From Terasakiella sp. SH-1 (GTDB taxonomy: Bacteria > Pseudomonadota > Alphaproteobacteria > Rhodospirillales > Terasakiellaceae), in the NCBI RefSeq assembly GCF_004564135.1, contig NZ_CP038255.1, forward strand, positions 1,909,501 through 1,973,500: DNA of 64,000 bases, given 5' to 3'. This document shows positions 25,878 to 32,181 of this stretch, in pieces; position 1 is the first letter of the stretch, and each line of letters opens with the position of its first letter. The notes beneath the pieces were generated by a model. That model saw nothing but the letters and a program-made list of their open reading frames with translations. It was not told where the DNA came from and searched no databases. A program made the position numbers and the translations under genes.

Positions 25878-26948
25878 TTATTCGTAATCATCATCTTCAA
25901 CAGCCACCGGGCTTGAAGCCAAATAAGCTGAACTGTTCATCACCAAACTCACCAGTTCCGGCTGGCGGTTTGTTCCGGTTTTGCGAAAAACCTGCTTGAG
26001 ATGCGAGCGCACCGTATTCATGGAAACACCGACTTCATCGGCAAAGGTTTCCAGTTTTTTCCCGACAATCAAACCTTGAAGCAAGCGGGCTTCTGCTTCG
26101 GTCAAACCATAGAGGCGCGCCAACACATTAGTGGGCGGTTCATTAAACTTTTCCGGATCATTGATAAAAACAGCGACCTTGCCTTCATCAGAGGAAATAT
26201 CGTCTTCATCCGGCAAAGGCACAACCAGCAGAGAAAAAGAACGACGCATGGATGGACGTGACACGATCATCGCCCCCCCTTCACGGTCTTCGTCTTCACC
26301 AATGTCGATGGCCGCATCTGCGATCATGGTATGAAGGTTTTTGGTTTCCCCAACCTTGGCCGTTCGAAAAACACCCGTTGGCCCCACATCCACCCCATCG
26401 CTTTGGGCAAAAATATCGCTGGCATTATTGTTCATAAACAGAACTTGTGCCGATTTATCAACAATAACGACCCCCATAGGCAGCTTGTTTAAGGCAGCTG
26501 CACCAAAATCTGTTTTCCTGTCATCGGCAAATTCGTCCCCGCTGAACATTTCTGTATTGGCATCAGGGACGAAAGTTTCCCCTTCCAAAACAGTTTCAAC
26601 AGCCTTAAGCATCTGGTCCTGACTAAAGGATTTAAACATATAGCCAGCCACACCACATTCCAGCGTCTTGTTGATGGCCTTTTGGCTTTCCGTTGCTGAA
26701 ATAATGATAATGGGGACTTCAGGGCGTTTGCTTTGAACCGCCCGAATACCGTCCAGCCCCGCCATCCCCGGCATATTCAGGTCGGCAATAACCAAAGAAA
26801 AATCAATATCTTGAGATAAGACCGATAGCAGGTCCGGATAACTGGTAGCCTGCAAGATTTCAGCATCGGGCTCAATCTCCCGAAGGACCCCTTTTACACC
26901 CTCCAATAAAAGTGGATGATCATCGGCGACGACAAATGTTGTTTTCAT
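25878..26948 (-). CDS. Response regulator with REC, PAS-like and LuxR domains
   Basis: A 356-residue regulator. The receiver (1-125) has VVADDHPLL and phospho-acceptor Asp56 in LVIADLNMPGMAG. A PAS-like domain (about 150-275; NKLPMGVVIVDKSAQVLFMNNNASDIF) follows, then a LuxR-type helix-turn-helix (about 288-345; LTEAEARLLQGLIVGKKLETFADEVGVSMNTVRSHLKQVFRKTGT). The internal PAS is unusual for this class and offers a second input besides phosphorylation. It is 31 bp downstream of the hybrid kinase, its probable partner. Confidence 0.9.
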   Translation of the reverse strand: MKTTFVVADDHPLLLEGVKGVLREIEPDAEILQATSYPDLLSVLSQDIDFSLVIADLNMPGMAGLDGIRAVQSKRPEVPIIIISATESQKAINKTLECGVAGYMFKSFSQDQMLKAVETVLEGETFVPDANTEMFSGDEFADDRKTDFGAAALNKLPMGVVIVDKSAQVLFMNNNASDIFAQSDGVDVGPTGVFRTAKVGETKNLHTMIADAAIDIGEDEDREGGAMIVSRPSMRRSFSLLVVPLPDEDDISSDEGKVAVFINDPEKFNEPPTNVLARLYGLTEAEARLLQGLIVGKKLETFADEVGVSMNTVRSHLKQVFRKTGTNRQPELVSLVMNSSAYLASSPVAVEDDDYE

Positions 26949-26979: not shown

Positions 26980-29900
26980 TTATGTCCGTTGCGGAAAGTT
27001 TTTAACCTGCACGCTACGGATGAGTTGTCGCAGCTTAGCTGGACGCAACGGTTTATGCAACAAGACGAAGCCACTGGACTTTGCCTCTTGAATACGATCA
27101 GGCGCTGTATCCCCGGTAATAATGGCAGCCGGTATCTGTTCACCCAGTTTTTCATGGATTTTGCGAATGGAATCAGCCCCTGTCATCTCTTCCTGCAAAC
27201 GGTAATCTGCCAAAATCAAACTTGGCATTTCATCTGTTGTATCAATGGCCTCCAAAGCTTCCTGTGTAGAACCTGCTGCCAGTACATTGTATTTCCACCC
27301 GGAAATCAGCTGCTTCATCCCGTCCAGAATATCAGGTTCATCATCAATCACCACAATCAATGGCACTTCCGATCCACTTAAGGCAACTTCGATTGGCTTT
27401 TCTTCGGCCTCAATCACTTGAAGTTCATCTTTGGGAACCTGCAATGTAAAGGTTGTCCCCTTCCCATGAACCGACTTCACCCCCAGATTATGGTTCAACA
27501 GGGCCACTACACGTTCCACAATGGCCAACCCGAGGCCAAGACCACGGCGGCGATCACGTGCCGGGTTGTCCAGTTGCTGGAATTCGACAAAAATATCATT
27601 CACTTTGTCTTTTGGAATGCCCACCCCGGTATCAGAAACCTGTAACAAAACCTCATCACCACGACGGCGTGCCCCCAGCAAAATACCGCCTTCTTGCGTA
27701 TAACGCACCGCATTGGACATCAAATTAGACAGCACGCGCTCCAACAAAACAGGGTCACTATGAACAGCCAAATCAGGACAGAATGATTTCAGGATCAGTC
27801 CTTTTTCTTCGGCCAGTGCACTATATTGTTTAATCAAGCGTTCCACCAGCGGGCGTAACATGACGGGTTCTTTTTCCGCCTTCATCACTCCTGCATCCAG
27901 CTTGGAAATATCCAACAGGGCATTCAACAATCCACGTAAGGCTTCAAGGCTATCAGAAATATTATTGATAATACGCAAGTCCCCTTGGGCATTATCCGTA
28001 TTGACCTTACGGCGGCGGTCTTCCAACGCAGACAAAAACATGCCAATGGCGTGCAGCGGTTGGCGCAAGTCATGACTGGCCGCAGCCAGAAACTTGGATT
28101 TCGCCTTGTTGGCATTTTCCGATTCAAGACGAGCCTGTTCCAAACGATCTTCGGCCTCAATCCGGTCTGTGATATCAATAACGAGTGATACCGTCCCGCC
28201 ATCCAGCGTCGGTGCTTCACTGACTTGCAGATATCGCCCATTTGACAGAGCCTCCATAAAGACACCTGTCGGTTTGTGGCGGAATTTGCGACGACGATCG
28301 GCATATCCTTGCCCATCGCGAATACCGCCACGTTCTTCCATCTGCATAACCAGTTCTTCAAAGGTCACACCTGGGCGGATACGATCATTGAGCAATTTAT
28401 AATACTGGTAATATTTACGATTACACAGAACCAGACGGTTTTCATGATCCCAAAGGGCGAAAGCCCCCGGCATAATCTCGTTTGCCGCCATCAAACGGCT
28501 GCGGGCCTGTGTTTCTGCCGTAATATCGGCCCCGGTCCCCCGATAACCCAAAAATTCACCATCGGTACTGAAAATTGGCTTACCACTAAGCTTGACCTGC
28601 CGCCAAATCCCGTCAGGACATTTAATGGAATAAGAAAATTCCCGAAAACGTCTGCGGTTTTTCAAATCATTTTCATGATGGATCCACTTATCAGGGTCAT
28701 CCACATCACTACAGGTCAGCTTGCCAAATTCTGATTGGGTTTTGCCCAGAATGTCATCACGGGAAAACCCGGTAATGTCATAAAAACGATCAGACAGGAG
28801 TGAGTATTTCAGTTCCCGATCCGTTTCCCATAACCAGTCTGAGGTTGCTTCGGCCACATCGCGAAAACGGGCCTCACTGATTTTCATATCTTCTTCGCGC
28901 CGTGCAATTTCATCAACCAAATAGCGCAAGGCGTCAGCCATGTCAGAGATTTCATCCTGCCCCTGTGTGGGAATTTCAGCTTCCCCACCTTCTGCATGAG
29001 TTCGCATTGACTGTTTCAAGGCATTCAGGCGGGTTAAAATTCGCCAGATAAACGCCCCGCCAATCAAACTGAGAACAACCACCGCACCCAACACAATGTT
29101 TGTCAGAAGTGTGGTTCGACTTTCAACAAGATGCTGGAACTCCAGACTATTTTGTTCAATCCCTTCACGCATGCGCCGGATCAAATCATTCACAGAATAA
29201 ACGAAGCGGCTGGACAAGCGTTCATTTACCGCCAAAATACCGGAAACCCGTTGCAAAATAAGCGCATGACGGGCTTGCAACGCAATCAACCCATCTTCAC
29301 CCAATGCAATATTGCGCAAACGCTGCATCGTCTCTTTTTGCACAGGCTTATCTTTCAAAGCCTCTTCATAGGCTTTTAATTTTTGGAGTTTTGCCAACAA
29401 ACCGATGCGGTATTTTTCAAAACTTGCCTGATCCTTGATGGTTTCAAAAATCAACAATCGTTCAATTAAATCATTAAATAAATCGAACCAGACGGCTTTT
29501 TCAAAATCACGGTGAGCTGTTTTTTCACGAACAAGCCCTTGCAACTCCAAATTTCTTTTTTGCTTCAAGCCGGTTACTTCAATGCGTTCCTGAACCAGTT
29601 GATCCAGACGCCCGTAATTTTCCAAAAGCTGTTCACGCGTTAAGTTAATGACCTTAAGAACATCAGTATCAACCTCATAGGCGCGCAAAGAACCCACGAT
29701 TTCCTGTAACCAGCGCACCCGGTCTGCGATACGAAATGAAATGGTTTCACGTTGGGCCTGTGTTGTGACACGAACCAACATAGGAGCACTGGCAACAATT
29801 GCCTCACTTTGCTGCCCCAACTGATAAGCCAGCGTCATGGCGGGCAGACGTGACAGGGCAACCTCTTCAATCCCTTTGTTAAATTTCTGGATTGAAAAAA

Positions 29901-29991
29901 TACCAACACCAGCCGCTGCAATCGTGAACACCACAGCAAGCGTGAAACTGGTAATCAACTGAGCAAATACACCGAAGCGAAAGCCACCCAT
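26980..29991 (-). CDS. Membrane hybrid histidine kinase (HAMP, PAS, HisKA, HATPase, REC)
   Basis: A 1003-residue kinase. Two membrane spans (about 11-34 and 292-315) enclose a helical periplasmic sensor of about 255 residues. Then come HAMP (about 315-368), two PAS domains (about 375-505 and 505-620), HisKA with His640 in AAASHDLRQPLHAIG, HATPase with NAVRYTQEGG and DTGVGIPKD, and a C-terminal receiver with Asp929 in LILADYRLQ. The helical periplasmic domain with cytoplasmic relay recalls TorS-like sensors. The RR gene follows directly. The three 181-bp repeats with terminators lie in its upstream leader. Confidence 0.93.
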   Translation of the reverse strand: MGGFRFGVFAQLITSFTLAVVFTIAAAGVGIFSIQKFNKGIEEVALSRLPAMTLAYQLGQQSEAIVASAPMLVRVTTQAQRETISFRIADRVRWLQEIVGSLRAYEVDTDVLKVINLTREQLLENYGRLDQLVQERIEVTGLKQKRNLELQGLVREKTAHRDFEKAVWFDLFNDLIERLLIFETIKDQASFEKYRIGLLAKLQKLKAYEEALKDKPVQKETMQRLRNIALGEDGLIALQARHALILQRVSGILAVNERLSSRFVYSVNDLIRRMREGIEQNSLEFQHLVESRTTLLTNIVLGAVVVLSLIGGAFIWRILTRLNALKQSMRTHAEGGEAEIPTQGQDEISDMADALRYLVDEIARREEDMKISEARFRDVAEATSDWLWETDRELKYSLLSDRFYDITGFSRDDILGKTQSEFGKLTCSDVDDPDKWIHHENDLKNRRRFREFSYSIKCPDGIWRQVKLSGKPIFSTDGEFLGYRGTGADITAETQARSRLMAANEIMPGAFALWDHENRLVLCNRKYYQYYKLLNDRIRPGVTFEELVMQMEERGGIRDGQGYADRRRKFRHKPTGVFMEALSNGRYLQVSEAPTLDGGTVSLVIDITDRIEAEDRLEQARLESENANKAKSKFLAAASHDLRQPLHAIGMFLSALEDRRRKVNTDNAQGDLRIINNISDSLEALRGLLNALLDISKLDAGVMKAEKEPVMLRPLVERLIKQYSALAEEKGLILKSFCPDLAVHSDPVLLERVLSNLMSNAVRYTQEGGILLGARRRGDEVLLQVSDTGVGIPKDKVNDIFVEFQQLDNPARDRRRGLGLGLAIVERVVALLNHNLGVKSVHGKGTTFTLQVPKDELQVIEAEEKPIEVALSGSEVPLIVVIDDEPDILDGMKQLISGWKYNVLAAGSTQEALEAIDTTDEMPSLILADYRLQEEMTGADSIRKIHEKLGEQIPAAIITGDTAPDRIQEAKSSGFVLLHKPLRPAKLRQLIRSVQVKNFPQRT

Positions 29992-30087
29992 CGTGTCACA
30001 GCACCATCTACATTATTTTTACAATTGAAATGATAGTAATTAGTTTTGGTTGAAATTTGAAACATTTAATCAAAAACATACCGGATA

Positions 30088-30268
30088 AAAAAAATGGGTG
30101 ATAAGAAATCTTATCACCCCAAGTCCGCCGAGAAACTACGTCGTACTCAGAACCCCAATATGGAGAACTGTTTAGATACTGCCTGAAAAGTTTGGCATTG
30201 CCTTCACCCATATAGGTGAAAATACATATTTTTTGTAAAAATAAACGACATCCCCCTGACAGACAGAC
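30088..30268 (-). repeat. Tandem repeat copy 1 (kinase-proximal) with terminator
   Basis: Complete 181-bp unit. Its hairpin (30096-30119) is a perfect GGGTGATAAG/CTTATCACCC stem. Read on the minus strand, the unit runs AT-rich leader, TTCACC/GGTGAA hairpin, about 85 nt of invariant core, then the terminator with a T-run (interrupted by one A here). The other copies differ by only a few bases. Confidence 0.9.
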
Positions 30269-30449
30269 AAAAAAAAGGGTGACAAGAAACCTTATCACCC
30301 CAAGTCCGCCGAGAAACTACGTCGTACTCAGAACCCCAATATGGAGAACTGTTTAGATACTGCCTGAAAAGTTTGGCATTGCCTTCACCCATATAGGTGA
30401 AAATACATATTTTTTGTAAAAATAAACGACATCCCCTTGATATACAGAC
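30269..30449 (-). repeat. Tandem repeat copy 2 with terminator
   Basis: Complete 181-bp unit. In its hairpin (30277-30300) the minus-strand arms are GGGTGATAAG and CTTGTCACCC, so the substitution keeps a U-G pair in the minus transcript but would give a C-A mismatch in the plus transcript. Eight T follow on the minus strand. Core identical to copy 1. Confidence 0.9.
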
Positions 30450-30605
30450 AAAAAAAAGGGTGACAAGAAATCTTATCACCCCAAGTCCGCCGAGAAACTA
30501 CGTCGTACTCAGAACCCCAATATGGAGAACTGTTTAGATACTGCCTGAAAAGTTTGGCACTGCCTTCACCCATATAGGTGAAAATACATATTTTTTGTAA
30601 AAGAA
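30450..30605 (-). repeat. Tandem repeat copy 3 (ctpA-proximal), truncated linker
   Basis: Lacks the last 25 bp of linker found in copies 1 and 2, beginning eight bases after the ctpA stop. Its hairpin (30458-30481) has the same minus-strand-favouring U-G substitution as copy 2. One core change (GGCAGTGCC instead of GGCAATGCC on the minus strand). It can serve as the ctpA terminator. Confidence 0.88.
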
Positions 30606-30612
30606 AAGATCC

Positions 30613-32181
30613 TTAGCCTTTTTCAATCGGCTGAAGCCCTGCTAAAAATTTCTTTGCTGTCCCCGCCTTCAAAAACTCCAAAGCACATCCCAGTTCTTTA
30701 TCCTTTTTGTCACTGACCTCAGGGCAGGCTTCAATAGATGTATTCCCCAAAACCCCATCTTTATTCTGCACCTTCCCTTTATTAAAGGATTTGGCATGGA
30801 TCACATTGGGCAAATCCGCTTCGCGCGGGGCCTTGAATTCTTTCTGTGCTCCTTCGGCTGTTTTTTCCTCAACCTTGGGCACATCAAGACGAATATCCGG
30901 GGCCACACCGACTTTTTGAATGGTACGCCCTGACGGCAAATAATAAAGGGCTGTTGTCAGACGCACGGCCCCTTCTTTCAACAAAGGCATAATGGTCTGT
31001 ACAGACCCTTTACCAAAGGTTCGACGCCCCATCAAGATCGCCCGGTTGTGATCCTGTAAAGCGCCTGAAACAATTTCAGAAGCAGAAGCCGACCCACCAT
31101 TAATCAAGACAACGACAGGAAGCCCTTCGGCAATATCACCACTGCCCGCCCCATAACGGCGCACATCATCAGCAGCACGCCCGCGAATGGAAACCACATC
31201 CCCATCATCAAGGAACAAGTCACTCAACGCGACAGATTGCTGTAATAAACCACCGGGATTATTACGCAGATCAAGAACAACACCTTTTAAATTGCCATCT
31301 GTATCTTCATATGCCTTGTCAAAGGCTTTGCGTACATCACTTTCCATTCGTTCAGAAAAAGACACAACACGCAAATGGAGGTAATCCTCATAAAGCGCAT
31401 GTTTAACCGCACGAACCTGAATAATATCGCGCACAATCGTCACATCAAAAGGTGCACGCTTTTCACGATCCACCGTCACCGTCACAGGTGTGCCCGGTTT
31501 GCCCCGCAAGGTGCGCACTGTTTTCGTCAGTGTCCATTCCTTAATAGATACCCCTTCAATATGGGTAATATGGTCCCCCGGCTTCAAACCGGCACGATCT
31601 GCGGGCGTATCTTCAATGGGGGAGACGACTTTTAAAAAACCATCCCCTTGCTGAACCTCAATCCCCAGACCACCAAACTCACCACTGGTATCGACCATCA
31701 GCTCCTGAAATTCAGCAGGGGTCATATAACCGGAATGAGGGTCCAGTTTTTCCATCATCGCATCAAGGGCAACTTCCACGACCTTGGCTGGCTGAGCCAC
31801 CCCTTTGGGCGTACCATCAGCGGCTTCTGCCCAAGCCGTGTCCTTGCCATTCAGCCCCTCAATCGCATAAGTGATCAGGTCCTGATCAGAAACCTGTTTG
31901 ACATAGCTGCGACGCACCACCTTGAAAGCATCAACAAACTGATTAAACTGGTCCTGACGCGTCCCGTCATCTACAGATTTTTCGTGGTAGACGTTCTGAA
32001 AGCGGGCCAAGTCCTCCATCGCTTCTTTTGGCAGACCATGCGTCCCTGTCAGCGAAGAGACCCAGCGCCCCACAGGACCATCATCAATCGCGCATCCGCT
32101 TAATGTCGGCAAGAAAACGGTTGCAGTTCCCAAAGCGAGAACAACCATCATAATGGAAGGCAGGCGTGACCAGATTTTCAT
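30613..32181 (-). CDS. ctpA: C-terminal processing protease CtpA (S41), lipoprotein
   Basis: A 522-residue periplasmic S41 peptidase. The signal ends in a lipobox LSGC with Cys30. A PDZ domain (about 165-245; GGLGIEVQQGDGFLKVVSPIEDTPADRAGLKPGD) precedes the catalytic core, in which the central Ser of GGSASASEI and the Lys of RTFGKGSVQT, 25 residues later, form the dyad. It trims C-termini of envelope proteins. The usual soluble or membrane form is here lipid-anchored. A 7-13-7 dyad lies in its promoter. Confidence 0.94.
   Translation of the reverse strand: MKIWSRLPSIMMVVLALGTATVFLPTLSGCAIDDGPVGRWVSSLTGTHGLPKEAMEDLARFQNVYHEKSVDDGTRQDQFNQFVDAFKVVRRSYVKQVSDQDLITYAIEGLNGKDTAWAEAADGTPKGVAQPAKVVEVALDAMMEKLDPHSGYMTPAEFQELMVDTSGEFGGLGIEVQQGDGFLKVVSPIEDTPADRAGLKPGDHITHIEGVSIKEWTLTKTVRTLRGKPGTPVTVTVDREKRAPFDVTIVRDIIQVRAVKHALYEDYLHLRVVSFSERMESDVRKAFDKAYEDTDGNLKGVVLDLRNNPGGLLQQSVALSDLFLDDGDVVSIRGRAADDVRRYGAGSGDIAEGLPVVVLINGGSASASEIVSGALQDHNRAILMGRRTFGKGSVQTIMPLLKEGAVRLTTALYYLPSGRTIQKVGVAPDIRLDVPKVEEKTAEGAQKEFKAPREADLPNVIHAKSFNKGKVQNKDGVLGNTSIEACPEVSDKKDKELGCALEFLKAGTAKKFLAGLQPIEKG

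Follow-up and report, generated by a model that had tools for sequence, protein, structure and literature searches.

A tandem array in the genome of Terasakiella sp. SH-1 is best read as an undescribed family of Hfq-type tandem small RNAs (sRNAs) driven by the adjacent two-component system, a reading that we consider likely. The array lies in the window, the 64,000-nucleotide stretch of contig NZ_CP038255.1 that was analysed, and its gene anatomy, the covariation in its RNA, the spacing of its operator and its linkage to the two-component system are established by computation. Each 181-bp unit is best explained as a complete predicted small-RNA gene on the minus strand. As in an intergenic trans-type sRNA gene, a promoter module of its own (judged by consensus and spacing) and an intrinsic terminator surround a conserved non-coding core.

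In the whole window, Tandem Repeats Finder detects a single tandem array, at 30088-30602, with 2.8 copies of a 181-bp period that match at 97% and contain no indels; identity at a period of 181 is about 100% from about 30090 to 30420 and at background level outside. Both results agree with an initial annotation of this DNA, which had described three near-identical 181-bp tandem units. The annotation had also given each unit its own minus-strand terminator, and terminator stems are indeed present at 30096, 30277 and 30458. In the stems of copies 2 and 3, a plus-strand C gives a G.U pair in the minus-strand RNA and C.A in the plus-strand RNA, so that the described base change, which keeps a pair in the former and loses one in the latter, is seen as reported. 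Likewise, the coordinates agree with its placement of the array between the ctpA stop (30613) and the start of a hybrid kinase gene (29991), all on the minus strand. The 3.83-Mb one-contig genome carries these three sRNA copies only. The spacer is nearly identical among the three window copies (30088-30602), unlike that of the copies of sister species, and because the copies are near-identical even there, the triplication, or its homogenisation, is recent in this genome.

The features of the array and its neighbours are listed below. Copies A and B score 104.5 bits each, and copy C 102.6 bits, against a covariance model trained on sequences that include these same copies. The sRNA length of 83 nt runs from a predicted start, placed by the position of the -10 hexamer, to the end of the U-run.

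30450-30532, minus strand: predicted sRNA gene copy A (first on the minus strand), 83 nt, conserved core and terminator
30269-30351, minus strand: predicted sRNA gene copy B
30088-30170, minus strand: predicted sRNA gene copy C
30565-30582, minus strand: candidate operator palindrome of copy A, TTCACCTATATGGGTGAA, centre about -42 (-10 spacing, conservation, no covariation)
30384-30401, minus strand: candidate operator palindrome of copy B (-10 spacing, site distribution)
30203-30220, minus strand: candidate operator palindrome of copy C (-10 spacing, site distribution)
30538-30543, minus strand: -10-like hexamer of copy A, CAGTAT (fixed 28-bp offset from the right half of the palindrome)
30357-30362, minus strand: -10-like hexamer of copy B (28-bp offset)
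30176-30181, minus strand: -10-like hexamer of copy C (28-bp offset)
30450-30482, minus strand: intrinsic terminator of copy A (fold, covariation)
30269-30301, minus strand: intrinsic terminator of copy B, equivalent to that of copy A
30088-30120, minus strand: intrinsic terminator of copy C, equivalent to that of copy A
30613-32181, minus strand: ctpA, peptidase S41 with PDZ (Pfam)
26980-29991, minus strand: hybrid histidine kinase, directly downstream of the array; TorS-type sensor match, HAMP, PAS, HisKA, HATPase and receiver (Pfam)
25878-26948, minus strand: response regulator with receiver and LuxR/GerE DNA-binding domain (Pfam), proposed activator of the sRNA promoters

The invariant core noted in each unit extends to the relatives: across 15 copies from the genus Terasakiella, 47 of the 52 core positions never vary. 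Of 114 four-fold sites in the neighbouring regulator gene, 3 are unchanged, and pairwise identity there is 37%, so these synonymous sites are close to saturation. Computation thus shows that the core is under selection. The near-frozen stretch runs from CAGTTCTCC to the U-run, 83 nt in the window copies, and contains two CU-rich segments, GUUCUCC and GUUUCUC. Its predicted fold (z -4.1) begins with a hairpin at the 5' end; a second, weak hairpin follows, whose loop, UAGUUUCU, is invariant, and the RNA closes with an intrinsic terminator that ends in U8. In the alignment, 96.3% of cells are paired and 7 pairs are changed on both sides, compared with 1.5 in shuffles; none of 500 shuffles, a control that ignores the kinship of the copies, reaches the observed covariation on any measure, and slid versions are also far lower in cells paired and covariation score. 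Most of the covariation comes from the terminator, where six pairs have changed on both sides, and the first hairpin contributes one instance; the second hairpin hardly varies, so that covariation neither backs nor contradicts it. Rather than being broken without compensation in the relatives, which would have spoken against function, the terminator pairs change on both sides. With both the core and, through compensatory changes, the terminator stem conserved, the proposal that the units are a small-RNA family in triplicate, read from the minus strand, is supported. The transcript length suggested with it, about 150 nt, is more likely to be about 85 nt, and the strand assignment holds.

The near-identity of the three window copies, spacer included, would also be expected if the array were a neutral recent tandem duplication or a functionless mobile repeat. 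We give this explanation almost no credence: two or three copies are found in all six species, the core is invariant while synonymous sites are saturated, and compensatory changes accompany a fixed operator spacing. Searches of phage, plasmid and viral collections returned no match to the array, which speaks against a mobile repeat, and the conservation refutes neutral duplication as a full account.

Tandem copies of similar length are also a feature of type I toxin-antitoxin or small-protein genes such as the Sib/QUAD or Ldr repeats, and open frames of 91-96 aa do run through the window units. However, in that frame the core changes between families all alter amino acids, with zero synonymous changes in the core; copies are out of frame with one another owing to a 38/39-nt difference in spacing and to indels in the terminator; and the frame has no Pfam match. 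Given these amino-acid changes and the shifted spacing, the open frame is not a gene. We regard a toxin or small-protein array as highly improbable, and a conserved short toxin frame of the Sib/Ldr type is ruled out by the frame shifts and non-synonymous changes.

The TTCACC/GGTGAA element had been annotated as a hairpin in each unit. For TTCACC-N6-GGTGAA, 83.3% of cells are paired, compared with a shuffled mean of 84.1%, and there is no covariation. In 17 of 18 copies, the palindrome lies exactly 28 bp upstream of the -10-like hexamer (27 bp in a lone copy outside the arrays), and this spacing is kept even in the two other families in which relatives were found, while the distance from the palindrome to the RNA core varies from 72 to 80 across copies and grows in those two families. 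Since its distance to the -10 is fixed whereas that to the RNA is not, we read the palindrome as a DNA operator; an RNA stem is ruled out by the absent covariation together with the fixed spacing, and the annotated hairpin instead behaves as an operator upstream of the promoter. The -10-like hexamers of the relatives are CATTAT, GATAAT or CATAAT, that of the window copies is weak (3 of 6 matches), and no -35 element is evident in the units. If transcription starts near CAG, the palindrome is centred near -42, which is where class II activators sit and where LuxR-type activators bind. TTCACC/GGTGAA is therefore best read as a candidate activator operator near -42, upstream of the promoter and outside the RNA. 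The palindrome is nearly private to these sRNA genes: the genome has two other exact sites, both inside coding frames, and none of the extra sites in the genus recurs between species.

In all six Terasakiella genomes examined, including Terasakiella pusilla and T. brassicae, two or three tandem copies precede the same kinase gene. The five genomes other than that of SH-1 carry 2, 3, 2, 2 and 2 copies, plus one lone extra copy in G002. An order-wide search of 317 genomes found matches beyond the genus in G018 and G009 only, which belong to two other families and carry diverged copies. G018 has a single copy directly upstream of the regulator gene; G009 has one directly before the homologous hybrid kinase, which is followed by the regulator, and a second copy elsewhere. 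The search of related genomes proposed in the initial annotation thus turned up copies in all six genus genomes and in two other families. The lone G002 copy (L019 1421-1600, G002:C6), which by eye adjoins an endonuclease-I-like gene, has a degraded left operator half and may have been relocated and be losing regulator control. In G001 and G005 (L004 from 1961; L008 from 1810), the array is preceded by a long frame, not ctpA; the two frames start alike (MVYAPSHASDHFEF... and MAYSVQTQEQNPNFDF...) and perhaps encode a large surface or adhesin-like protein.

Beyond the genus and these two relatives, a search with the exact core of 84,980 species genomes gave only coincidences that the covariance model rejects, and one-mismatch near-core matches elsewhere in the order (25 loci scored) are likewise not sRNAs by the model. 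No known riboswitch or sRNA family had been recognised in the units, and Rfam 15 over the window gives no family at the gathering threshold. At E values up to 10, only weak matches to suhB/mmgR, SorY and MicC appear, far below threshold; suhB/mmgR (RF00519) reaches 17.8 bits (E 0.44) against a curated threshold of 41 bits.

The array's position directly upstream of the kinase gene, on the same strand in six of six genus genomes, is what would be expected of three stacked attenuators or leader RNAs controlling read-through into that gene, as had been offered in the alternative. However, each copy has its own promoter module, and some copies lie at a distance from the kinase (G002, G009) or precede the regulator (G018). 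Since the palindrome shows no covariation in RNA, no 5' anti-terminator stem is supported, and three full U8-tailed terminators in series would only weaken read-through. We consider such leaders very unlikely. A possible separate kinase promoter, TTTCAA-N18-TACTAT, is common to G000 and G002, in the gap that separates the final terminator from the start of the kinase gene (window 29995-30085); if true, it would free the kinase from read-through.

Returning to the likely reading of sRNA genes driven by the two-component system, the kinase keeps its position after the array throughout the genus, and close orthologues of the regulator (E below 1e-90) are confined to the 8 of 317 order genomes that carry the sRNA, and occur in all of them; after these, the best proteins in the 317 genomes score 1e-49, with about 33% identity. 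The recognition helix VSMNTVR(S/T)HLKQ is kept in all eight orthologues and in none of 22 aligned paralogues, at whose loci no sRNA copy was found. Support in the tree for a single clade of the eight regulators is not firm, and the eight sRNA-bearing genomes come from just three families; the linkage is therefore strong, but the independent events are few. At 356 aa, the response regulator (25878-26948) is longer than usual for a receiver-GerE protein, and its middle part, which has no Pfam match, is PAS-like by eye.

The neighbouring response regulator probably turns on the sRNA copies; linkage and co-occurrence are the two observations behind this proposed control, and binding to the operator is predicted from these and from the type of motif. 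The same tandem sRNA genes could instead answer to another transcription factor, with the two-component system a mere neighbour or target, and the lone G002 copy and one of the two G009 copies do lie away from both kinase and regulator. Nevertheless, we judge another activator unlikely, given that the sRNA genes are linked to the kinase or the regulator in three families, that regulator and sRNA co-occur, that the recognition helix is near-identical among orthologues, and that the operator has the size usual for NarL/LuxR-type activators.

With the adjacent regulator as activator, each unit would place an 18-bp activator operator near -42, have a -10 but no recognisable -35, and start an RNA of ~85 nt near CAGTTCTCC. 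The hybrid kinase would sense a signal and phosphorylate the adjacent NarL/LuxR-type response regulator, which would then bind the operators and activate all copies together. The copies would add up as Hfq-dependent base-pairing RNAs: the genome encodes Hfq (111 bits), and together with a Rho-independent terminator ending in a long U tail (U8) this fits a putative Hfq-dependent sRNA. The invariant CU-rich loop GUUUCUC would probably pair with purine-rich ribosome-binding sites, as for LhrC. When targets were sought by exact matches to the 10-nt complement, CCGAGAAACT, few sites outside the arrays turned up and no recurrence was seen within the genus; predicted pairing with the mRNA starts of the kinase or regulator, as in feedback, is no better than shuffled. 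No CsrA was detected in the genome by a search that found it in 3 of 14 control genomes, and so this is not an Rsm system; the core contains one GGA.

More tentatively, and as a possibility that we favour less than the reading above, the sRNA array, hybrid kinase and NarL/LuxR-type regulator may form a self-contained cassette whose direct output is mainly or solely the tandem sRNA; it would be an alphaproteobacterial counterpart of the Gac/Rsm architecture that works independently of CsrA. Because the operator is almost confined to the sRNA genes, it suggests a two-component system given over to RNA output. The best-known example of such an architecture is gammaproteobacterial Gac/Rsm; here it comes without CsrA. 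To our knowledge, few Rhodospirillales sRNAs have an assigned regulator. Since operator, likely regulator, sensor and RNA lie side by side, the circuit is testable by one deletion and one binding assay.

Among known systems, LisR is an OmpR-type regulator, LuxO is a sigma-54 activator, GacS/GacA combines a hybrid kinase with a LuxR-type response regulator, and the Rsm RNAs titrate CsrA/RsmA through repeated GGA motifs. With two or three tandem copies in six species, the array is multicopy in the manner of LhrC, csRNAs and Qrr. LhrC1-5 of Listeria are multicopy ~110-nt sRNAs, mostly clustered, under the LisRK two-component system, and their CU-rich motifs bind the AG sequence in ribosome-binding sites (PMC12101431). 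They resemble the array as multicopy, clustered, CU-rich sRNAs beside or under one two-component system (here predicted), but come from another phylum and depend on another regulator family, and a sequence relation is not expected. In Vibrio, several near-identical Hfq sRNAs, Qrr, are a phosphorelay output (PMC4211561, PMC2680268), and their genes lie far apart from each other (PMC4211561); unlike the Qrr/LuxO system, the array has tandem copies and a promoter that looks sigma-70-type with a palindrome near -42. GacS/GacA drives several sRNAs, RsmX/Y/Z, via a palindromic upstream activating sequence (PMC2375449). The array shares the hybrid kinase, the LuxR-type regulator and the palindrome upstream of several sRNAs, but lacks the repeated loop GGA motifs and a detectable CsrA/RsmA. 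Among alphaproteobacteria, ChvR of Caulobacter is a trans-acting sRNA controlled by the two-component system ChvGI (PMC6237742); it differs in being one Hfq-independent sRNA with one target (PMC6237742), under a different two-component system. AbcR1/AbcR2 of Rhizobiales are tandem sibling sRNAs, for which the passages of PMC4211561 drawn on here describe no two-component link, and the array is without an Rfam match at threshold. The kind, a two-component-controlled multicopy sRNA, is already known, and this family, which matches no Rfam family, is a further candidate of that kind. By analogy, the array would work like the multicopy two-component-controlled sRNAs LhrC, csRNAs and Qrr, as these are presented in PMC4211561.
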